DNA of 64,000 nt from Phycisphaerales bacterium AB-hyl4 (GTDB taxonomy: Bacteria > Planctomycetota > Phycisphaerae > Phycisphaerales > Phycisphaeraceae). The position numbers were made by a program, and so were the translations under genes. Shown here piece by piece: positions 5,433 through 23,201 of the stretch; the stretch's first letter is position 1; each line of letters opens with the position of its first letter. The stretch is taken from positions 18,328 to 82,327 of the forward strand of contig JBGUBD010000017.1 of the NCBI GenBank assembly GCA_041821185.1, written 5' to 3'. The notes below the pieces were generated by a model. That model did not search any database. It was not told the DNA's origin and worked only from the letters and a program-made list of their open reading frames with translations.

Positions 5433-6728
<1,296 letters not shown>

Positions 6729-6871
6729 AGGTAAAGACTCTCCCATCACCTCCAGGCGGCCGGCCAACTGCCTGAATATCGAGACCTTGATTGTAGGGAC
6801 GCGTCATCGGTTATGCCAGTTGACAGCAGCGAGGGAGGCGAGCCGAACCTCGTGCTGGAGCGAATCTGGCG

Positions 6872-10566: not shown

Positions 10567-13500
10567 TCACTTTTCTCGAAAGGTACATCGAACACAAGTG
10601 CCGCCCTGGTCGCGCGGCTCCACGGAAAGGTCGGCGCCGATCACCGACGCGCGATGATGCATGATTCGAAGTCCGATTCCCTCCATCTTTATAGCGTCGT
10701 CCGGCATCCCGCAGCCATCGTCAGCCACAAGAATCTCAAAACGCGCCTGTTCATCCCGCGCCAGACAAACTTCGATCCGACTCGGCTGGGCGTGTTTCAC
10801 CGCGTTACGCATCGCCTCCTGAACAACGCGAAACAAGTGATTCGTAGCATGCCGTTCCAGTTTCGGGGCCTCTGTCCGGGCATCCAACCGACATGCTATA
10901 CCATATTGTGCTTCGGTCGTGCGAACGAGTTCAGTCAGGGCTTCTACTAAGTCGCTCGAGTCAAGATCCACCGGATACAGCCCCCGAGCGACCGCGCGAA
11001 CGTTCTCCAACGCTCGGCGAAGCCCCTCCGCCAGCTCGTGCACACGCTCGGCCTCACCGCGGCCCTCTTCGCGCAACTGATTACGAAGATTTTGCGCCAT
11101 AAAGCTCAGTCCGGTCAACTCCTGTCCGAGGTTATCGTGCAATTCCTGCCCGATCCGCTGCTGTTCCCGCAGCGACAACTCCGTCAAAGCAGCGTCCAGA
11201 TCCTTCTGGTCGGTGATGTCCTGCGTGATGGCGATGGCGTATAGCGGGGCCCCCGTCCGGTCCCGGATGAGCGAGGCGTTGCATTGCACCCAGATCGCCC
11301 GGCCGTCTTTGTGCACCAGGCGCTTTTGCATGTCGTAGTACTCGGCCTCGCCGGTGAGCAGCTTGATGCAGCGATCCTCGGCGGTGCCACGCTCGTCTTC
11401 GTGCGTCAATTCATGGATGGTCAACTGGCGAAGCTGGGCTTCGTTGTAGCCGAGCATCTGCTGCATGGCCAGATTGGCCTCGGCCAGCTTGCCGTCGGGG
11501 TTGATCAGCGCGATGCCCAGTTGCGTGCTCTCGAACACTGCCCGGAACCGCTGCACGCTTTCGCCCAGCGCTTCCTCGGCCCGCCGACGTTCGGTGATGT
11601 CTTCCAGCGTGCCGAGCACCTGGGCGACCCCGCCCTCTTCTGTGCGGGTGAAGCCGGTGACCCGGGCTTCGAACCAACGCCAGTCCCCGTCGCTGTGGCG
11701 GAGTCGGTACTCGGCGTCGATTACCGTGCCGGCGGGCGCGTCGGCGAGCTGTTCGAGCAGTCGGCGGAACGCGGCCCGATCGTCTTCATGGAAAAGCTGC
11801 ACCAATTGACCGCGGTCCATCGCCTGAAGCTGAGCCTCGGTATAGCCGAGCATCGTGCGGACCTGCGAGTTGGCGTAGATGAGTTGGCTCTTGATCAGAT
11901 CGACGACGACAAACAGCAACGGGGCCGTGTCCGCGACCGAATTGATAAAGTGCTCGCTGTCGCGCAAGTGCTTCGCAGCGCGTTCGCGTTCGACCACTCG
12001 GCCAAGTTGTGTGCCGATCTGTGTCATCACTTCAATCAACCGATCATCAGGCTGGATATTGCGCTCTGAGAAAAACTCCAGCACCGCCACCACCTGGTCC
12101 CCCGCCCAGACCGGCAACGCCATTGCCGTCCGCACCGCCTGCTCCTGCGCACGCAGGGTGCGAATCAGCGGCTCTTCCGATTCATGCATGCTCCAAGCGG
12201 GTCGGCCAGTCTGATAGACACGGCCGACGAGACCGACCCCCCGGCGAATAGAACTGCGACGGACCGCCTCCGTCAGCGCCGAATCATCTTCGATCTGCTC
12301 CGCTGTGGCGCAGTCCAGCAGCAGCAGATTGTCCCCCTCCGCCTCGTCAGGGAGGAACGCCAGCCCCACCATCCAACCCCCCGTGCGACAGACCTGTTCG
12401 AGCACCTGACGCACCGCCGACGCCAGGCCGGAAGATTCGTTGGCCGCCGCCGTCGTCGTCTGCATCAGACGCAGCCAGGCGGTGCGCTGTTCGACGTTTT
12501 TCTCCAATTGCCGATTCAAATTTTTCAGTTCATCTTCAAAGGTCTTACGGGCCACGGCTTGCGAAAGGATGTGTGCAACCGACTGAATAAAATTCACATC
12601 TTCCTGCGTGAAGCGACGCGGCCGAACGCTGTGCACCCCCAGCACCCCGAACGGACGGTGGCTGCCCTGAATCACCACGCTCAAGCCGCTGATCACGCTG
12701 GCGTGGCGAAGCAGCGGCGGCCCCGAAAAACGCTGTTCATTGCCCAGGTCGTCAACCACCACCGGCGTGCCCACCGCCAGCGTATAGCCCGCCTGCGAGT
12801 CCAGCCCCGCATCCACGCGCGCATGCCCCACCATCCCCGGCTCCCACCCCACGCCCGACCGCAGCAACAACTCCATCCGCCCGGGCAACAGCTCCAGCAC
12901 CTTGGCGTACTCCACGCACAGCGTCCGCGCCACCGCCTTCGTCGCTTCGTCCATCAGCAGCTGAAGGTCCGTCCCCTCCAGCGCACGCTGGCCCAGCTCG
13001 GCGACCACGGCCTGCTGCGCGACGCGGCACTGGCTTTGATCGACCAGGTCGCGCAGGCGGGTCACATCGGTGAACGTGAGCACGACGCCTTCGATCCGGT
13101 TCTGAGCCGTGCGGTACGGCAGCACGCGCATCGTGTACCACGTGCCCGTCGCGGTGCGGATTTCTTTCTCCACCGGCGACAGCCGATCCAGCACCGCCGC
13201 GGCCTCGCCCAGCAGACTCTCGTCGGTCAGCCGCATCATCGCGCGGTTGATCGGCCGACCGCGATCGCTCGTCTCCAGCCCCAGCAGCCGCGCTGCCGAC
13301 GGGGTGAACCGCTTGATGCACAGGTCCGTGTCAAGAAACACGGTGGCGATGTCCGTGCTCGCGAGAAAATTGGAGATGTCATTGTTCGCCTGCTCCAGCT
13401 GGTCGACCTTTTCCTGCAACTGCGTGTTGAGCGAACGCAGCTCCTCGTTGAGCGACTGCAATTCTTCCTGCGAGGTTTCCAGTTCCTCGTTGGCCGACTG

Positions 13501-15039
13501 CAACTCCTCGTTCATCGACATGACCTGTTCGTTGGAGCTGCGCAACTGGTCGTTGGAGCATTCGAACTGGTCGATGGTGGCCTGGAGGTCCTCGCGGACG
13601 ATGCTCAGCTCGTGTTCGAGTTGGGCAATCGTGTGCTTGCGGTCGAGGTCAGAGCCATCGCCATCGCCGTCGCCGTCGGCCGAGGGGGAGTGGCTGCCAG
13701 TGGAGAAGGCGTCTTCGAAAACCACCATCAGCACAGGCGCGTCGGCGGTGGTGTCCTGATTCACCGGGCGAACCGTCATGCGCACCAGGCTTGAGCCGGC
13801 GCTGGTCGCGGCGGTGACGGCCACGGGCCGACGGGTCTGAAGCGTTTCGTGCACGCCAGCTCGGAGCCGGTGTTGCGCCGGCTCGTCGAGCATGCTCAGG
13901 AGGTTGAGGCTTGGCTCGCCTTCGGGCAGGTGCAGGTAGCGGCGCGTCGGGCCATGCAGATGCAGGATCTCGTACTGCCCGTTGATCGCGACGCATGCCG
14001 GAGCGTACTCCTGCATCACGATCCGCCGAATGGTTTCGCCCAGGTTGCTGTGACTCTCGACACGGCGTGGGGGCGTCGGCCGCGTGTGCGTACGCTCCGC
14101 ACCGGTCAGTACCGGAAAGGCGGCGGGCTGTCGGCGGGCGGCGGGCAGCTTGTGGTACACCCGGCGTTCGTCGGCGACCGGGGCGAACAGCTCGCGCTTA
14201 CGGCCGACGCTTTCCGAATGGCCCAACACGAGGTAGCCCTCGTCCGCGATCGCCATGTGAAACAGCGACAGCAGCCGAGCCTGGATGTCCGGCTCCAGGT
14301 AGATCATCAGGTTTCGGCAGCAGATCAGGTTCAGCCGAAGGAACGGCGGATCGGTCAGCAGGTTTTGCGGCGCGAAGACGATCGATTCGCGAAGCGACTT
14401 ACGCACCCGGTACGTGCGGTCCGGCTGCTTGTGGAAGAATCGCTGTAGCCGATGTTCGTCAATGTCGGTCGAAATCTCGTTGGGGTATCGGCCGGCGCGG
14501 GCGAATTCCAGCGCCCGGCGGTCGATGTCGGTGGCGAACACCTGCAACTGCGACGCCGCCTTGTCGCCTAACGCTTCGTGAAACAGCATCGCGAGCGTGT
14601 AGGCCTCTTCCCCGGTGGCGCAGCCGGGCACCCAGACGCGGATCGGCGGGGCGTTGGCGGAACGCTGTTTGACGATGTCGGGAATCGCCTGTTCTTCGAG
14701 AATGCGGAACGTCTCCGGCTCGCGGAAAAACGCCGTGACGCTGATCAGCAGATCCTGAAGCAAACGCTGCGCCTCATCCGGCCGCTGCTCAAGCAGGTGG
14801 ACGTAGCCGGCAAGGTCCGACGTGCAAGCCAGGGCCATCCGCCTTTCGATCCGTCGGCGAATCATGCTCTTCTTATAAGGCCGAAAGTCGCAGCCCGTGA
14901 CGTTGCAAACCTGCTCCAGCACACAATTGAACAACTGGTCGACATCGGTCGTGCCCTCCGCAGCGCGTGACGCATCGATCGATGAATCGATCGGTGACGC
15001 ATCGTCTCGCGTTGGTGGAGAAGGTTCACGCTCAGTCAT
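10567..15039 (-). CDS. CheR-PAS-GAF-PAS sensor histidine kinase (HisKA_3 type)
   Basis: A giant 1490-residue signalling protein. The domains in order are: CheR N-terminal all-alpha (~35-115), CheR SAM-dependent methyltransferase with VPGCATGEEAYTLA at 137-150, a long coiled coil (~465-545, repeating NEELQS/LNEEL), a PAS domain (~550-660), two GAF-like regions (~690-850 and ~880-1030), two further PAS domains (~1040-1260), and a NarL-type HisKA_3 dimerisation domain with the phospho-acceptor His in QELHDNLGQ, followed by an HATPase_c domain (NAVKHA ... DDGCGMP). CheB/CheR-PAS kinases are known, but the CheB methylesterase domain is missing here. The protein is soluble, with no membrane segment. 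It pairs with the response regulator immediately downstream. ATG 15039 is preferred to 15057. Confidence 0.9.
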   Translation of the reverse strand: MTEREPSPPTRDDASPIDSSIDASRAAEGTTDVDQLFNCVLEQVCNVTGCDFRPYKKSMIRRRIERRMALACTSDLAGYVHLLEQRPDEAQRLLQDLLISVTAFFREPETFRILEEQAIPDIVKQRSANAPPIRVWVPGCATGEEAYTLAMLFHEALGDKAASQLQVFATDIDRRALEFARAGRYPNEISTDIDEHRLQRFFHKQPDRTYRVRKSLRESIVFAPQNLLTDPPFLRLNLICCRNLMIYLEPDIQARLLSLFHMAIADEGYLVLGHSESVGRKRELFAPVADERRVYHKLPAARRQPAAFPVLTGAERTHTRPTPPRRVESHSNLGETIRRIVMQEYAPACVAINGQYEILHLHGPTRRYLHLPEGEPSLNLLSMLDEPAQHRLRAGVHETLQTRRPVAVTAATSAGSSLVRMTVRPVNQDTTADAPVLMVVFEDAFSTGSHSPSADGDGDGDGSDLDRKHTIAQLEHELSIVREDLQATIDQFECSNDQLRSSNEQVMSMNEELQSANEELETSQEELQSLNEELRSLNTQLQEKVDQLEQANNDISNFLASTDIATVFLDTDLCIKRFTPSAARLLGLETSDRGRPINRAMMRLTDESLLGEAAAVLDRLSPVEKEIRTATGTWYTMRVLPYRTAQNRIEGVVLTFTDVTRLRDLVDQSQCRVAQQAVVAELGQRALEGTDLQLLMDEATKAVARTLCVEYAKVLELLPGRMELLLRSGVGWEPGMVGHARVDAGLDSQAGYTLAVGTPVVVDDLGNEQRFSGPPLLRHASVISGLSVVIQGSHRPFGVLGVHSVRPRRFTQEDVNFIQSVAHILSQAVARKTFEDELKNLNRQLEKNVEQRTAWLRLMQTTTAAANESSGLASAVRQVLEQVCRTGGWMVGLAFLPDEAEGDNLLLLDCATAEQIEDDSALTEAVRRSSIRRGVGLVGRVYQTGRPAWSMHESEEPLIRTLRAQEQAVRTAMALPVWAGDQVVAVLEFFSERNIQPDDRLIEVMTQIGTQLGRVVERERAAKHLRDSEHFINSVADTAPLLFVVVDLIKSQLIYANSQVRTMLGYTEAQLQAMDRGQLVQLFHEDDRAAFRRLLEQLADAPAGTVIDAEYRLRHSDGDWRWFEARVTGFTRTEEGGVAQVLGTLEDITERRRAEEALGESVQRFRAVFESTQLGIALINPDGKLAEANLAMQQMLGYNEAQLRQLTIHELTHEDERGTAEDRCIKLLTGEAEYYDMQKRLVHKDGRAIWVQCNASLIRDRTGAPLYAIAITQDITDQKDLDAALTELSLREQQRIGQELHDNLGQELTGLSFMAQNLRNQLREEGRGEAERVHELAEGLRRALENVRAVARGLYPVDLDSSDLVEALTELVRTTEAQYGIACRLDARTEAPKLERHATNHLFRVVQEAMRNAVKHAQPSRIEVCLARDEQARFEILVADDGCGMPDDAIKMEGIGLRIMHHRASVIGADLSVEPRDQGGTCVRCTFREK

Positions 15040-15692
15040 GATCAGTGTTCCGTGCAAAAAACCACGCCGAGGCCGGGCTCAGCGTCGAAACAGCGAGGTG
15101 GCAAGGCTGCGGACCAAACATGCCAAAATCAGGTGGCACAATATGAGTCCACCCGGCGTCCATTTTGATGTCGAAAATGAAGCCCCTCTACATCTCAACA
15201 TGGAGTATCCGGGTCATCTGGCAATCCGACGCTTTTTCCAACGTCGGGGGCGGTGTCGCGATCCAGCACAGCAAAGATCTACTAGCGACCGCAAGTGCCA
15301 GTGGCGAGCGACATCTGCCAGTGGCGAGCGACATCATAGTTTCTCCAGATTGCCTTGGCTTCTCCATTTCACAAAAAAATTCAAGTTTTAATGGCTGTTT
15401 AACCGTGGTACGGATGGGGTAAATCATTTGTGTTATGTGCTTTGGGGCGTTTTTCCAGCTTAAGGGTAGGTAAGTATCCGCGTTAGCCTATGGGGTTTTG
15501 CGTGGAGCAGGCTAAGGAAAAGGTAGGGCAGTGCATCTGTGTGATGCCCAAGGCAGGTTCAGCCCAAATGCCCCGCCTCAAGCTTCATGTTTAGCCCCTG
15601 CGGCCACGCAGTGCGCCCTGCCTTGCGGCCAGACGCGATCACCCGGAGCAAGTGATCGATGACATTGACGTTGCGGGGGCAGATCGCCGATC
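15040..15692. other. Long, locally AT-rich spacer with a 20-bp tandem duplication
   Basis: No convincing gene was found. The stretch 15150-15470 is more AT-rich than its neighbours. It contains an exact tandem duplication of a 20-base unit (TGCCAGTGGCGAGCGACATC) at 15296-15335. Short frames on both strands have no ribosome sites or recognisable domains. It probably holds the promoters of the divergent kinase and subtilase genes, and may include decayed sequence. Confidence 0.5.
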
Positions 15693-17120
15693 ATGAAGCA
15701 GGATATGAGTTACCCGATCTGGCGATGGTGTTGCAACGGCTGGACGCTGACACTGCTGCTGAGCGCAGCGGCGGTGGTGTGGGCGCTCTGGTCGCCGCTG
15801 CCCCGCGCCAGCCTTGCTGAGCAGGCGGAGGCCGTCGAGTCGGCCCCGCCCGATCGCGCGGAACTGGCTGGCTTCACCCAGGCCGAGCGCCGCCTCGGCG
15901 ATGATGCCCCGACCGGCGCGGGCATCGTCCTCGGCCACGTTGAGGGCGACCCCGGCCAGTACCTGCCTCGCGTTGACCACCACCGCTACCGCCGCATCGA
16001 CCTCCGCCCACGCTCCGGCGAGTCCGAACCCCTCAGCCATACCGACGCCACCGCCCGCATCATCTACGGCCCGCAAGGCCTCGCCCACGGCATCCGCGAA
16101 GTGCACCACTTCTCCAGCCCGCACTGGCTTGGCGGCGGCTACCTCCGCGCCGGCCAAAGCCAACCGCCCGCCGACGACCGCCCGCGCGTGTTCAATCACT
16201 CGTGGATCGGCAACGACTCGGGCATGAACCCCGCGCAGACCGCCCACATCCTCCGACGCATCGACTACGCCATCGACCGCCACGGCGTTGTGATGAGCGT
16301 CGGCGTCAACAACAACCGCAACAGCCGTGTGCCGGGCCTGCTGGCCAGTGCCTACAACGTCATCGCTGTGGGCCTGGCTGACGGTGCTTCGAGCAGCGGC
16401 GGGACGAACATTGAAGTCGAAGGCCGAGCCAAGCCCGACATCGTCGCCCCGGGGACTCGCACGAGCTACTCGACCCCCGTGGTTACCGCCGCGGTCGCCC
16501 GCATGCTCGAAGCGGCGGGCAAGCTGCCGGAGCACGCCGAGTCCGCCCGTCGGCCGGAGACGATCAAGGCGCTGCTGATGGCCGGGGCGACCAAGCCGTG
16601 GAACTGGCGGCAGCGCGACGGGCAGGTGCTCGACGATCGGCTGGGCGCGGGCGTGGTCCATCTGGACAACGCGCTTCGCATCCTCGAAGCCGGCCGAGCC
16701 AAGCCCAACGAGGTCCGCTCCGGATCAGGCTGGGACTTGCGGATGATCCAGCCCGGCGGCAGGGCGATCTATCGTCTGGACCTCGACGAGCCGGTGGAAG
16801 AGCTCTCGATCATGCTCACCTGGCACCGCCGCATCGACGGCCGAACCGTCCCCCACCCCACCACGGGCCAGCCCGCCTGGGTCGACACGCCGGCGCTCGC
16901 CCGGTTCGACCTGCGGGTGGTGCACGCGGGCGATGAGGGCTCGCGCCTGCTGGCGGACAGTCTGTCCGAAATCGACAACGTGCAGCACGTCCACCTCACC
17001 GACGCGCCGGCGGGCGACTATCACCTGGTCGTTTCAAGACGGGAAGGCGGCCCGGCTGCCCCCTGGCCTGTGGCAATCGCCTGGCGTGCGGGCGAACGAG
17101 TGCCCTATCCGGGCGATTGA
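15693..17120 (+). CDS. Membrane-anchored S8 (subtilisin-like) serine peptidase homologue
   Basis: A 475-residue protein with one N-terminal hydrophobic anchor (~16-36) and a subtilase-like domain (~70-290). The catalytic Ser region is GTRTSYSTPVVTAAVARML (Ser258), the oxyanion Asn area is VVMSVGVNNN (~200-208), and the His position fits LSHTDATARIIYG (His116). Where subtilases have Asp in the first strand (the xxDTG motif), this protein reads GAGIVLGHVEG, so the canonical Asp is not evident. The C-terminal ~130 residues form a beta-rich domain. It probably acts outside the cytoplasmic membrane. It may be a true but divergent peptidase or a non-catalytic homologue. The start could also be ATG 15705. 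Confidence 0.78.
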   Translation: MKQDMSYPIWRWCCNGWTLTLLLSAAAVVWALWSPLPRASLAEQAEAVESAPPDRAELAGFTQAERRLGDDAPTGAGIVLGHVEGDPGQYLPRVDHHRYRRIDLRPRSGESEPLSHTDATARIIYGPQGLAHGIREVHHFSSPHWLGGGYLRAGQSQPPADDRPRVFNHSWIGNDSGMNPAQTAHILRRIDYAIDRHGVVMSVGVNNNRNSRVPGLLASAYNVIAVGLADGASSSGGTNIEVEGRAKPDIVAPGTRTSYSTPVVTAAVARMLEAAGKLPEHAESARRPETIKALLMAGATKPWNWRQRDGQVLDDRLGAGVVHLDNALRILEAGRAKPNEVRSGSGWDLRMIQPGGRAIYRLDLDEPVEELSIMLTWHRRIDGRTVPHPTTGQPAWVDTPALARFDLRVVHAGDEGSRLLADSLSEIDNVQHVHLTDAPAGDYHLVVSRREGGPAAPWPVAIAWRAGERVPYPGD

Positions 17121-17463
17121 GGTTCAATCGCCTTGCCAAGGGCCGCTTAAATGATGCTACGGATGACCCATCAAACTCGGGCTCTGTGTGTGAGGCCGAC
17201 GCCCACGACTTGAAGCCGTGGGCGTCCTGGTCGACCCGAGATGGGGGAACCGGCTCAATTCAACAAAATGAAAATGTCGTGCAAACGATGATGTTCGGCT
17301 GCGTCTTTTAGAACGTGGGAACGGTGCCACTGGTGGCAAGCCACCAGTGGTACGCATTCAGCTTTTTACACACATTCTAAGAGACTCTATAGAGATATGG
17401 ATTCGCATCGTGGGTCGCGGGGCTCTCGACGCGACCCGTGCAAGGCGGTAGGGGTGATGCCGA
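17121..17463. other. Spacer with composite repeat and a second hairpin
   Basis: No gene was seen. It carries the composite repeat at 17158-17226 and a perfect hairpin CCACTGGTGGC/GCCACCAGTGG with AA loop at 17327-17350, probably another dispersed palindrome. The stretch just before 17464 should contain the promoter of the sigma-fusion gene. Confidence 0.6.
17158..17226. repeat. Composite dispersed repeat, copy 2
   Basis: TACGGAT, then CATCAAACTCGGGCTCTG, then a GACGCCCACG...CGTGGGCGTC hairpin. It has the same architecture as 5288-5358. Confidence 0.8.
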
Positions 17464-18999
17464 ATGATGGATGGTGAAGTAGCAGAAGAGTTCGCGCGGT
17501 ATCAGCAGAACGGCGACGCGTCGTCGTTCGGGCGGCTGACACAGGTGCTCACGCCGCTGATCGAATCGATCGCCCGGCATCATCTGCGCGATCCGCATCT
17601 GATCGAGGACGCCCGGCAGGAAGTGTTGATTCGACTGAACGTGCATGCGGAGGCGATCTACGGCAACCTGCCGGGCTGGATCTCCACGACGACGCGGGCC
17701 GTGTGCGTCGACATGATTCGACGCCAGGCTGCCCAGCGGCGGCGGGTGACGCATTATGCGGTTGAGCCCAGGCGGTGCAGCGACGAGGCATTGATCGCCG
17801 AGGCCGTCCGCCGTCGGCTGGATGACGCGCTGTCCGAACTGTCGCCGGAGGTGCGGGAGCTGGTCCGGCAGCGATTCCTCCACGGGGCGCCGCTGCGGGC
17901 CGTGGCGAAGGCTCGTCGGGTTTCGATCGCCACCGCCAGCCGTCACGTGCAGGCTGCGCTGGCGGAGTTGCGGCATGCCTACGAATCGTTGGGCGTGGAC
18001 GGCATCCATTCCAAGGCCATGCTCGCCGACGTGCTCGTCGGAAGCGGGTGGCGGAACTACATCGCCGACCATGGGCTGAGTCACTACACGCATCGCCCGC
18101 TGCCAGGGGCGGGGATGATCAGCGGCGCCCCACAGGCGGGGCCGGATGGTTGGCCGCGACCGATCCGGGTCGGGGTGATCGTCAGTTACTCCTCTGCTAC
18201 GCGACCGAATAATCTCGGGAAAGTGATGCCCATTGAGCAGCAGGTCGTTTGGCTGCCTTTTCTGGAGGATCCCCGCTTTGAACTGGTGGGGGTGGTCGAG
18301 CCGGATACATCCGATCAGCCTCAGATCGAGCGGGTCATTCGAGGGTACGACCTGACGGCCGGCCTGATCGATGGGACCGACCTCGAGGCGCTGCGCACGC
18401 TCGACGTGATCTACCTTGGCTGGCAGGGGCGCATCATTCCGCAGGTGATCAGGGGGATCGCGGAGGCGGTGAGCGAAGGCGTGGGTTGCTACAACGTCGG
18501 GGTGACCTACACCCACCGCGGCGATTACCACCGGATCGTGCGGGAGGATCCTTATCTGCGGGCGCTGCGCCTCTGCGACGCGGTGTTGGGCACCTACTGC
18601 ACCATCGACCTCGGCCCGAGGAAAGGGCGGCACATGGTTCCGATGTCGCACACGGTGCAGCAGCGGCATCCGGCGCTGGCGGGGCTGGAGCCGGGGGATA
18701 AGTTCAATATGGGGGGCTGCGGTCTGCTGCTTCGGCCGGCGGAGGGGGTGCAGGTTCTGGCCACTCAGGACGAACTGGTGTCGCACACCTGTGCGTGCGA
18801 CGAGTGCCTTCGGTTTCCCATGACGACCCAGAAGATGCCCAAACACCAGATCTTGGCGGGCTCCTACGGCCGCGGGCGGGTGTTCATGAATCAGTCGCCG
18901 GAAATCCAGCCCCTGGCGAATCACCCGAACTCTCGTGGCTCGTTTCTGGAGCGCGTGTTTACCTGGCTGGCCGAGCCGCGCCGGCCGGAGGCGCGATGA
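17464..18999 (+). CDS. Sigma-70 family protein fused to a ThuA/GATase1-like domain
   Basis: A 511-residue protein with a sigma factor N-terminus and an unrelated C-terminal domain. Region 2 covers ~25-95 (LIEDARQEVLIRL, then GWISTTTRAVCVDMIRRQA). Region 4 covers ~117-176 (ELSPEVRELVRQRFLHGAPLR, with a helix-turn-helix around VSIATASRHVQAAL). A linker to ~233 is followed by an alpha/beta domain (~234-505) beginning IRVGVIVSY, with LDVIYLGWQGRIIPQVI, a VSEGVGCYNVG turn and a QQRHPALAGLEPGDKF segment, which together look like the ThuA/class I glutamine-amidotransferase-like fold. Cys443, Cys445 and Cys448 lie in HTCACDECLRF. The frame is open without break across both parts, so this is one protein. 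The C-terminus is probably a ligand-sensing module; that role and the fold name are inferences. Confidence 0.8.
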   Translation: MMDGEVAEEFARYQQNGDASSFGRLTQVLTPLIESIARHHLRDPHLIEDARQEVLIRLNVHAEAIYGNLPGWISTTTRAVCVDMIRRQAAQRRRVTHYAVEPRRCSDEALIAEAVRRRLDDALSELSPEVRELVRQRFLHGAPLRAVAKARRVSIATASRHVQAALAELRHAYESLGVDGIHSKAMLADVLVGSGWRNYIADHGLSHYTHRPLPGAGMISGAPQAGPDGWPRPIRVGVIVSYSSATRPNNLGKVMPIEQQVVWLPFLEDPRFELVGVVEPDTSDQPQIERVIRGYDLTAGLIDGTDLEALRTLDVIYLGWQGRIIPQVIRGIAEAVSEGVGCYNVGVTYTHRGDYHRIVREDPYLRALRLCDAVLGTYCTIDLGPRKGRHMVPMSHTVQQRHPALAGLEPGDKFNMGGCGLLLRPAEGVQVLATQDELVSHTCACDECLRFPMTTQKMPKHQILAGSYGRGRVFMNQSPEIQPLANHPNSRGSFLERVFTWLAEPRRPEAR

Positions 19000-19143: not shown

Positions 19144-19554
19144 ATGTCCACACACACGATGCCCGCAAGCCAGTCGGCGCCTACGGCCCTTGCTCCAGAC
19201 GACACGTCATTGGTCGCGTCGCCTCGGCCCTGGTGCCGGAAGCTGATTCTCGGGACCCGTTGCGCGATGTTGATCCTGCTGATCGCCCCCATTGTGAATG
19301 CGCTGGTCGTCCTTGCCATGAGTTGGGGGTTGATGCTTATCGTTGAGGTCAAGTCGGACAGCATTATTCTCAGAGTCTTCACCGGCCTCGGGGAAGCCAT
19401 GGTGTTGTACCGCTGGTCGTTTGCATTGGCGGCGGTCTGTGGCGGCATCCACAGCCTTCTGGTCCTTCGAACGCGCCCCGAATGGCACGTGATCCCCCTG
19501 CTTGCAGTCGTCTGCCTGATTGCCCTGCTGTTGGCGGACGGATTTTTCGGATGA
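19144..19554 (+). CDS. Hypothetical small membrane protein (136 aa)
   Basis: I do not recognise a family. The N-terminal ~30 residues are polar and Thr/Pro/Ser-rich. Three hydrophobic segments follow (~38-67, ~85-105 and ~112-133), so the protein is probably a cytoplasmic-membrane protein. ATG 19144 has a strong AGGAG Shine-Dalgarno about 7 bases upstream, which decides the start over the longer frame at 19078. It lies 144 bases after the sigma-fusion gene on the same strand and might be a target or partner of it, but nothing in the sequence proves this. Confidence 0.65.
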   Translation: MSTHTMPASQSAPTALAPDDTSLVASPRPWCRKLILGTRCAMLILLIAPIVNALVVLAMSWGLMLIVEVKSDSIILRVFTGLGEAMVLYRWSFALAAVCGGIHSLLVLRTRPEWHVIPLLAVVCLIALLLADGFFG

Positions 19555-21549: not shown

Positions 21550-22053
21550 TCACTCGGCCGCGGCGAATTCGACTTCGCCATCGGTCACGTCCGCGGGGCT
21601 GCGGCCGGCTTCGATGGCGCTGATCTTGCGAACGCGGCGAGCGTGTCGGCCGCCTTCGAACTCCGTGTAAAGCCAGACCTCCAGCACGCGCTCAAGCTGC
21701 CGGGGGCTCATCAGGTCAGCCGCGAGGCAGAGCACGTTCGCGTCGTTGTGTCGACGCGAAAGCTCGGCACCGACCTCGTCGCAGACCAGCGCAGCGCGAA
21801 CGCCTTTGACCTTGTTCGCGGCGATGGACATGCCGATGCCCGAGCCGCAGACGAGGATGCCACGGTCGGCGTCGCCTTCGCCGACGGCGGTGGCGACGGG
21901 GTACGCCTTGTCGGGGTAGTCGCAGGTGGCGTTTTCGCCGACGCCGCAGTCGCCGGTGATGGCGATGAAGGCGTGGCCCTGCTGTTCGAGCCAGCCCTGG
22001 ATCTGGCGGGCGACGTCCGTGCCTCGATGGTCAGCTGCGATGGCGACTCTCAT
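21550..22053 (-). CDS. rpiB: Ribose-5-phosphate isomerase B
   Basis: A 167-residue RpiB/LacAB-family isomerase, interconverting ribose-5-phosphate and ribulose-5-phosphate in the pentose phosphate pathway. It shows the N-terminal IAADHRG motif, the catalytic Cys in ILVCGSGIGMSIAANKVKGVRAA, and the RRHNDANVLCLAA segment. The ~20 C-terminal residues after the core are an extension rich in Ala and Glu. Its start overlaps the stop of the Sua5-phosphatase gene by four bases (ATGA), indicating translational coupling. Confidence 0.93.
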   Translation of the reverse strand: MRVAIAADHRGTDVARQIQGWLEQQGHAFIAITGDCGVGENATCDYPDKAYPVATAVGEGDADRGILVCGSGIGMSIAANKVKGVRAALVCDEVGAELSRRHNDANVLCLAADLMSPRQLERVLEVWLYTEFEGGRHARRVRKISAIEAGRSPADVTDGEVEFAAAE

Positions 22054-23201
22054 GGCTGTTGCTCCTTCAACCGCGATTCAAGACGACGTCGGATGACCTC
22101 GGCCGTCCGCTGGTAGGACGTAGCACCGGTGCCGATCGGGTCGTCGATATCCCCTCGTGGGTCGAGTGTGAACGTCTTATCCTCGGCCCACGGGGCGAGT
22201 TGAAGCACTGCCTGCCGGTGGGAGTCGGTCATGGTGTAAATCACATCCGCGTCGTGGATCAGTTCCGGCGTCAGTGGCCGCGAGCGGTGGCTGGCGATGT
22301 CGATGCCCTGCTTTTGCAGCGCTTCGATCGCGTGGTCCGCCGCAGGCATGCCGGGCATCGCCGACACGCCCGCCGAGAGCACGCGCAGCCCCGCGGCCTC
22401 CAACTCGTCCGTCGCAATGCCACGCTGGTCGGCCAGCAGCTTGCTCGCCAGCCCCTCAGCCATCGGCGAGCGGCAGGTGTTCCCGGAGCAGACCAGCAGC
22501 ATCGTCCACCTTAGCATCTTACGGATGTAACGCTCATCGTAGACGCCTTCACGTTCCACTTTTATGTGACGACTTACACCCTCGCCCGCGAGGTGCACCA
22601 CCGTCGACGGCCGAGCGTAGCGACTTCGCCCGCCATCGATGATCAGATCGACCTGACCATCCAACGCCTCGGCGGCGGCGTGAGCGTCGTGCGGCGCGGG
22701 TTGGCCCGGGCGGTGGGCGGCCGCGGCAACGATGGGCTCGTCCAGCGAGCCGAGCATCTGCTGCGTCAGTTCGTGGTCCGGGCAGCGAAGCGAAACGCTT
22801 TGTGCGTGGTAGATCCGGTCGCGAGCATAGGTCAGCCCACTGTCGCGGAGCTTCCGGTCGATCAGCTCGTTTGTAACATCAATGATCAGCGTCACCGCGC
22901 CGGGGAACGACTTTTCAATGGCCCGCTTCAGGAACGGGTCCGCCATGTCGACGTAGCGGTCCGCGGCGAAGGGGGTGGGCAGGTGGACGGTAAAGGCCCG
23001 GGCCTCGCCGTCGGCCTTGAGTTGGCGTAAGCGTTGCATGCCGATGTCGCTGGTGGCGGCGGCGGCCACGCCGTAGACCGTCTCGGTGGGGAAAACGACC
23101 AGTCCGCCGTCGCGGAGCAGCTCGGCGGCCTGCTTCGCGACCGCCCTCGCCTGTTCGCGGTTGCCCGGCTCGACCATGGTGATCTGCATATGACTGGCCA
23201 T
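22050..23201 (-). CDS. Sua5/YrdC-low-molecular-weight phosphatase fusion
   Basis: A 383-residue fusion. Residues ~10-215 are a Sua5/YrdC/YciO domain that makes threonylcarbamoyl-AMP for the t6A modification of ANN-decoding tRNAs (GGLVVFPTETVYG, then PGAVTLII and STVVHL). Residues ~230-380 are a low-molecular-weight phosphatase with the P-loop VCSGNTCRSP (Cys238, Arg244) and the C-terminal acid in DIDDPIG. Thr242 at Cys+4 is the feature that, in Bacillus YwlE, favours phosphoarginine over phosphotyrosine. In Bacillus subtilis the homologues ywlC (Sua5), ywlE and ywlF (RpiB) are separate but close neighbours. AAGGCG lies upstream of ATG 23201. Confidence 0.92.
   Translation of the reverse strand: MASHMQITMVEPGNREQARAVAKQAAELLRDGGLVVFPTETVYGVAAAATSDIGMQRLRQLKADGEARAFTVHLPTPFAADRYVDMADPFLKRAIEKSFPGAVTLIIDVTNELIDRKLRDSGLTYARDRIYHAQSVSLRCPDHELTQQMLGSLDEPIVAAAAHRPGQPAPHDAHAAAEALDGQVDLIIDGGRSRYARPSTVVHLAGEGVSRHIKVEREGVYDERYIRKMLRWTMLLVCSGNTCRSPMAEGLASKLLADQRGIATDELEAAGLRVLSAGVSAMPGMPAADHAIEALQKQGIDIASHRSRPLTPELIHDADVIYTMTDSHRQAVLQLAPWAEDKTFTLDPRGDIDDPIGTGATSYQRTAEVIRRRLESRLKEQQP

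Follow-up and report, generated by a model that had tools for sequence, protein, structure and literature searches.

The stretch analysed here (the window) comprises 64,000 nucleotides of the Phycisphaerales bacterium AB-hyl4 (contig JBGUBD010000017.1, positions 18,328 to 82,327 of the forward strand) and carries a gene in which an extracytoplasmic function (ECF) sigma factor is joined, in one reading frame, to a C-terminal domain of the class I glutamine amidotransferase (GATase1)/ThuA type (Table 1). In the sigma part, regions 2 and 4 are present and region 3 gives no match, which is the composition of ECF (sigma-70 group 4) proteins, and the NCBIfam model sigma70-ECF spans residues 26-172 (E 2.7e-16, exceeding the cut-off of the model). 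According to the AlphaFold2 models, a folded domain lies C-terminal to region 4. The initial annotation, made from the sequence alone, had proposed precisely this fusion, and the proposal has been borne out by Pfam, AlphaFold2, fold searches and profile comparison. The window's genome encodes one such fused protein, a second match there covering the sigma part only (E 4.4e-6). An antisense frame (17377-18924, minus strand) is a shadow of the gene, because it matches solely the antisense frames of two relatives.

Table 1. Features of the fused sigma factor gene and of its relatives (window positions, unless a genome, G, or a locus, L, is named)
Feature	Location	Strand	Basis
Entire gene, 511 amino acids: ECF sigma factor carrying a C-terminal GATase1/ThuA-like domain	17464..18999	+	frame, Pfam, NCBIfam, relatives
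Sigma region 2, residues 30-89	17551..17730	+	Pfam PF04542 Sigma70_r2, E 5e-9
Sigma region 4, residues 122-171	17827..17976	+	Pfam PF04545 Sigma70_r4, E 1.8e-5
Predicted helix past sigma region 4, residues 184-202, low confidence	18013..18069	+	AlphaFold2 full-length model
Linker, residues 203-226, low confidence	18070..18141	+	AlphaFold2 full-length model
GATase1/ThuA-like domain, probable sensor, residues 227-508	18142..18987	+	AlphaFold2, fold searches, profile comparison
Strand and turn at the inferred class I GATase nucleophile position, residues 341-346, no conserved Cys	18484..18501	+	secondary structure, alignments
His402, kept in 23/23 rows of alignment A7; HP motif as in ThuA	18667..18669	+	alignment
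Cys419, cytosolic branch only	18718..18720	+	14/14 A2 rows, 15/15 A7 cytosolic rows
CxCxxC, Cys443/445/448, window protein only	18790..18807	+	1/27 family proteins
Domain placed immediately after the sigma regions	G000, G005 (three), G008, G009, G017, G019, G025, G034 (four), G041, G429 (two), G439, G444, G445, G807
ECF sigma factors in which a hydrophobic helix separates region 4 from the domain	L082 385-2046, L084 3545-4987, L117, L085 1431-3191, L055 8052-9833
Ser/Thr kinase: kinase, hydrophobic helix, domain	G814, L081 6072-8198		Pkinase E 2.3e-52

The C-terminal part is predicted as a confident alpha/beta domain of about 280 residues (residues 227-508; AlphaFold2 mean predicted local distance difference test score, pLDDT, 88.5; predicted template modelling score, pTM, 0.90), and the structure prediction suggested as a check in the initial annotation has thus returned the GATase1/ThuA superfamily fold. 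Structures matched by fold include those of the ThuA proteins 1t0b and 4pxy, as well as 3rht, and profile similarity to both GATase1_like and ThuA was detected. On the combined evidence of the model, the fold searches and the profile comparison, the domain belongs to the class I GATase/ThuA/GATase1-like superfamily. The Pfam search that had also been suggested for this part of the protein gave no family up to E 1 for residues 191-511, in Pfam or in NCBIfam, so that membership is documented by fold and profiles instead; the same residues, as a single sequence, found one match in the PDB (E 0.79). What stands of the ThuA/GATase1 assignment is therefore the superfamily fold and not the ThuA family proper: the gathering score of ThuA (PF06283) was not reached in the window protein or in 14 fused domains, one of which matches at E 0.23, and that of GATase1_like (PF07090) was not reached either, with none of the 14 matching up to E 1, so that this kinship is one of profile and fold only. 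The sets used in the profile-profile comparisons (A4 and A5) were picked because the domain profile had matched their members, and are thus not independent of those profile searches. Of the seven weak matches of the family and order searches, four were identified with Pfam (the class, phylum and A7 searches contributing none): three proved to be GATase1_like proteins standing alone (PF07090, E 2.6e-21 to 8.2e-24), and the fourth a ThuA protein (PF06283, E 1.6e-51). Because its weak matches belong there, the domain profile leads on its own to PF07090 and PF06283.

The search for other proteins with this domain order, likewise suggested at the outset, found it in 20 proteins from 14 genomes of the class Phycisphaerae, the window included, and in other genera it is kept in a single frame at 28-45% identity. 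Such recurrence argues against a join by chance. The idea that the fusion arose in assembly, or from accidental readthrough of two genes, might find some encouragement in the frameshifted copies of two draft relatives (G017 and G444), but the window copy carries no frameshift, 18 of the 20 cytosolic proteins have one unbroken frame, including those of the single-contig genomes G005 and G034 (the copy of G445 is cut by a contig end), and the frame is conserved in independent genomes, all of which makes this explanation exceedingly improbable. The fusion in 17464-18999 is therefore real. In three genomes (G005, G034, and G429) paralogues lie side by side; G005 has three adjacent copies (L022 7652-12050) and G034, which is the cultured strain ZRK32 (CP066225.1), has four (L021 7670-13706). 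Strain ZRK32 has been proposed as Poriferisphaera heterotrophicis in the accessible text of its description (PMC10945688). The genus Poriferisphaera is placed in the family Phycisphaeraceae, class Phycisphaerae, and the window's genome belongs to the same family as ZRK32.

The window domain alone, used as query, had matches in 9 of the 61 near genomes and in 3 of 392 genomes from the whole phylum. The profile of 14 domains (A2) found matches in 12 of the 51 genomes belonging to the same family (E up to 0.001; E <1e-10 in 10 of these), and in at least 18 of 400 genomes of the order (at least 13 strongly), at least 40 of 347 of the class (at least 12 strongly) and at least 12 of 343 of the phylum (at least 3 strongly, those three all in the window's order), these last three tallies being lower bounds as six to seven candidates were scored per genome. 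A wider profile (A7) matched 20 of 26 genomes in the family of G839, 5 of them at E <1e-25, and 18 of 28 in the family of G814, where only G814 itself reached E <1e-25. The genome sets of the family, order, class, phylum and A7 searches overlap. No relative appeared among 5 pattern matches in a viral collection or among 7 pattern matches in a genome collection queried with the window domain; when five domains of G005 and G034 were used as query, the 47 pattern matches in the latter collection led to one locus, that of ZRK32 itself. One row of alignment A1 (L019) is a frameshifted copy with an out-of-frame start, and the frameshifted copy of G444 was excluded from alignments, trees, hydropathy and CxCxxC counts.

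More informative for function is a sister branch of the domain, in which it follows a hydrophobic helix. This branch comprises up to five more ECF sigma factors (the second gene of G009, one of G858 and three of G839), one Ser/Thr kinase and bare anchors, that is, one protein each in G839 and G843 with just an N-terminal helix ahead of the domain; in a further protein, from G848, a contig end has removed the sequence preceding the domain. Two of the three G839 sigma genes (L084 and L117) survive as near-alike fragments where contigs end and are possibly one gene, C231 being without its start and C198 without the end of its domain. The maximum hydropathy over 19 residues was 2.06-2.77 in the seven helix proteins measured versus 0.85-1.60 in 19 cytosolic ones, a difference that suggests that the sister-branch domains lie outside the cell. 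In the domain tree, the eight sister rows share one side of a branch (85/93) and all but that of G009 join at 98/95; the kinase row falls within this group of seven, placed with the anchor rows and a single G839 sigma factor (93/72). The sigma tree, in turn, groups the four membrane-spanning sigma factors tested (100/98). The presence of one domain on several kinds of output is the usual pattern for sensory domains. This exchange of outputs, sigma factor or kinase, on the same domain is the strongest evidence for a sensory module.

Alignment A7 has 23 rows, 15 cytosolic and 8 other; the four cytosolic domains that it lacks, out of 19 in the tree, are in A2. Cys419 is invariant across all 19 and occurs in none of the 8 domains elsewhere, where the position is taken by Asn (5), Tyr (2) or Glu (1). 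All 15 cytosolic rows of A7 retain Glu289 and Arg293, as against 2 and 0 of the other 8, respectively; Glu279 (14/15) and Ser241 (13/15) are further polar positions of the cytosolic rows. The catalytic triad of class I glutamine amidotransferases is Cys-His-Glu. No nucleophile Cys is conserved at residues 341-348 in A7, the elbow having been placed by secondary structure, and isolated Cys residues near it occur at position 342 of the window protein and at about 348 in G439. Glutaminase chemistry is unlikely because the Cys of the nucleophile position is not conserved. It could still be argued that the domain is another superfamily enzyme, of the amidase or isomerase kind for example, which is tethered to the transcription machinery or which, as a trigger enzyme, gates the sigma factor through its turnover, given that many superfamily members are enzymes, that His402 is present in all 23 rows and that Cys419 persists throughout the cytosolic branch. 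However, no nucleophile is conserved past strand 341-344, residue 419 varies outside the cytosolic branch, and the visible output domains are all sigma factors or kinases, so that an enzyme appears improbable. Somewhat less improbable, though still unlikely, is that the domain serves dimerisation or the docking of proteins, in the manner of the GH42 trimerisation domain that it resembles, with regulation through a partner or through assembly as has been proposed for ECF42; yet the polar Arg293, His402, Cys419, Glu279, and Ser241 are no less compatible with a pocket than with contact at a surface, and the copies on a kinase and on helix-bearing sigma factors fit a receptor.

The window protein is thus probably a one-component cytosolic ECF sigma factor that works without an anti-sigma factor and is controlled by its own GATase1/ThuA-like extension, acting as a non-catalytic ligand-binding domain. 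A small ligand would bind the domain at the edge of the beta-sheet, in a site in which Cys419 may take part; binding would alter the packing of the domain on the sigma part, perhaps via the predicted helix 184-202, and the changed packing would switch the binding of the sigma factor to core RNA polymerase or to the promoter. We infer the binding of a ligand, its site, the role of Cys419 there, the interdomain contact and the direction of the switch. In the full-length model, whose pTM is 0.59, the linker (193-223) is disordered and helix 184-202 has low confidence, so that the contact is conjectural. One-component control of RNA polymerase, which the initial annotation had advanced, accordingly stands as a likely role, as the same domain is found on other signalling outputs, and not as a proven one. 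Several observations weigh against this interpretation. The full-length model gives no confident packing of the C-terminal domain against the sigma part; in it, pLDDT is <50 across residues 193-223, with block means of 59 (residues 181-190) and 41 (191-200). The Foldseek matches are modest (TM-scores 0.33-0.51, root-mean-square deviation 6-12 A, in the 50 rows listed). Both the ligand and the target promoter are putative. The enzymatic nature of many superfamily members counts here too, as catalysis without the classical Cys is possible. The extracellular placement of the sister copies was deduced solely from hydropathy, and no common upstream motif emerged, the best one occurring in 5 of 17 sequences, as against maxima of 4-6 after shuffling.

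A broader proposal, which we put forward only tentatively, is that the domain is an uncatalogued sensory module of the Phycisphaerae reading one kind of ligand both in the cell, as part of soluble ECF sigma factors, and beyond the membrane, as part of receptor Ser/Thr kinases and of sigma factors that span the membrane. Position 419 would then have been re-tuned by compartment, with a redox- or electrophile-reactive, or metal-binding, Cys inside and mostly Asn outside. If this were true, membrane-spanning sigma factors bearing their own receptor would be one-piece switches from receptor to polymerase. The kinase and the apparently membrane-spanning sigma factors also offer a route to the ligand from outside the cell. 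Metal binding had been suggested in the initial annotation at another place, the CxCxxC cluster; Cys443, Cys445, and Cys448 are indeed present, but with the cluster in 1 of 27 family proteins a metal site there was rejected as a feature of the family.

C-terminal extensions of ECF sigma factors are a known, though little explored, means of controlling RNA polymerase without an anti-sigma factor. According to the accessible text of a review, at least 26 ECF groups are extended at the N or C terminus, and 15 of these groups await study (PMC8999054); those described comprise SnoaL, TPR, WD40, Cys-rich, anti-sigma-like and carbohydrate-binding types (PMC8999054; PMC8103513). A close parallel in architecture is ECF41 (SigJ) and its SnoaL-type kin, in which an ECF core also carries a folded C-terminal regulator and no anti-sigma factor is involved (PMC8999054), although the extension here is the GATase1/ThuA-like domain in place of SnoaL, for which the window protein gave no match up to E 1. 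Another example is the metal sensor ECF238 (CorE), whose C-terminal extension also serves as an on-board sensor (PMC8999054); unlike it, the window protein has no CXC between regions 2 and 4 (residues 90-121) and no conserved Cys-rich domain. The extensions of both ECF41 and ECF238 have been described as acting by conformational change (PMC8999054). The TPR extension of ECF42 is absent from the window protein, which gave no TPR match up to E 1. The membrane-spanning fusions ECF52, ECF48, and ECF53, and IutY, are comparable with the sister proteins of G839, G858, and G009 (sigma factor, hydrophobic helix and a domain beyond), but their extensions are anti-sigma or zinc-finger segments, or a carbohydrate-binding domain in SCO4117 (PMC8999054), and not GATase1/ThuA-like. 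As for the domain itself, GATase1_like protein 3rht of Planctomyces limnophilus shares the fold and a detectable profile similarity, but is a stand-alone protein of 259 residues. ThuA shares, besides fold and profile similarity, the HP motif at His402; on the other hand, the WHGG stretch of the ThuA rows is absent here, and Cys419 stands opposite the Glu of the ThuA HSEQYY stretch. The word amidotransferase does not occur in the accessible text of the two reviews, nor DJ-1 in that of the first (PMC8999054; PMC8103513). Literature searches gave no sigma factor fused to ThuA or GATase1 among the matches listed, and the combination of sigma factor, ThuA and fused as whole words gave only Rhizobium Nod factor work among the matches listed. 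Novelty has been judged against reviews, and the 2021 ECF classification may already contain a group for these proteins. If the proposed control is correct, the GATase1/ThuA-like extension would enlarge the range of on-board sensors by a new class, probably equipped with a ligand pocket. The four side-by-side copies of ZRK32 open the ligand, the target genes and the logic of the paralogues to testing.

Limited searches support the view that neither an anti-sigma gene nor a common partner gene adjoins these sigma genes. Anti-sigma families were absent, at E up to 1e-3, among 20 neighbouring open reading frames (ORFs) of eight relative loci, which were chosen by length and 8 of which match no family; two window neighbours of the sigma gene were also scanned for families. 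A comparison of 14 regions showed long synteny for the close pairs alone, namely G005/G034, G009/G429, and G041/G445, and the other loci gave at least eight single gene pairings, each with a different gene, including a TatA-like gene (window and G019), window 5433-6767 with a citryl-CoA-lyase-like gene of G008, and an aconitase-superfamily gene (G025 and G008). The last was judged not to be a common partner. The G025 gene fits the large subunits of 3-isopropylmalate/homoaconitate dehydratases, and between it and the sigma gene lies an ORF whose transposase match falls below the cut-off. In G008 (L018 9154-17000), genes resembling PrpD, homoaconitase and citryl-CoA lyase stand upstream of the sigma gene on the same strand, possibly a regulon hint in that genome only. 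The regulon is not readable from gene context. The small membrane protein at 19144-19554, which had been considered a possible target, was discarded, as it has no relative in the 13 other regions and no Pfam match up to E 1e-4 (one at chance level, E 0.23). A promoter scan found no promoter-like site (0.5 expected) and a terminator scan two terminator-like sites (1.7 expected).

Other genes of the window are of interest in their own right. Just upstream of the sigma gene and on the same strand lies a gene of the S8 subtilase family (15693-17120, plus strand; E 5.6e-12), and farther away, on the minus strand, 10567-15057 encodes a chimera of 1490 amino acids that combines a CheR methyltransferase with PAS, GAF and a HisKA_3/HATPase histidine kinase. 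Finally, a Sua5/YrdC domain is fused to a low-molecular-weight protein tyrosine phosphatase at 22050-23201 (minus strand), adjoining an RpiB-type isomerase (21550-22053).
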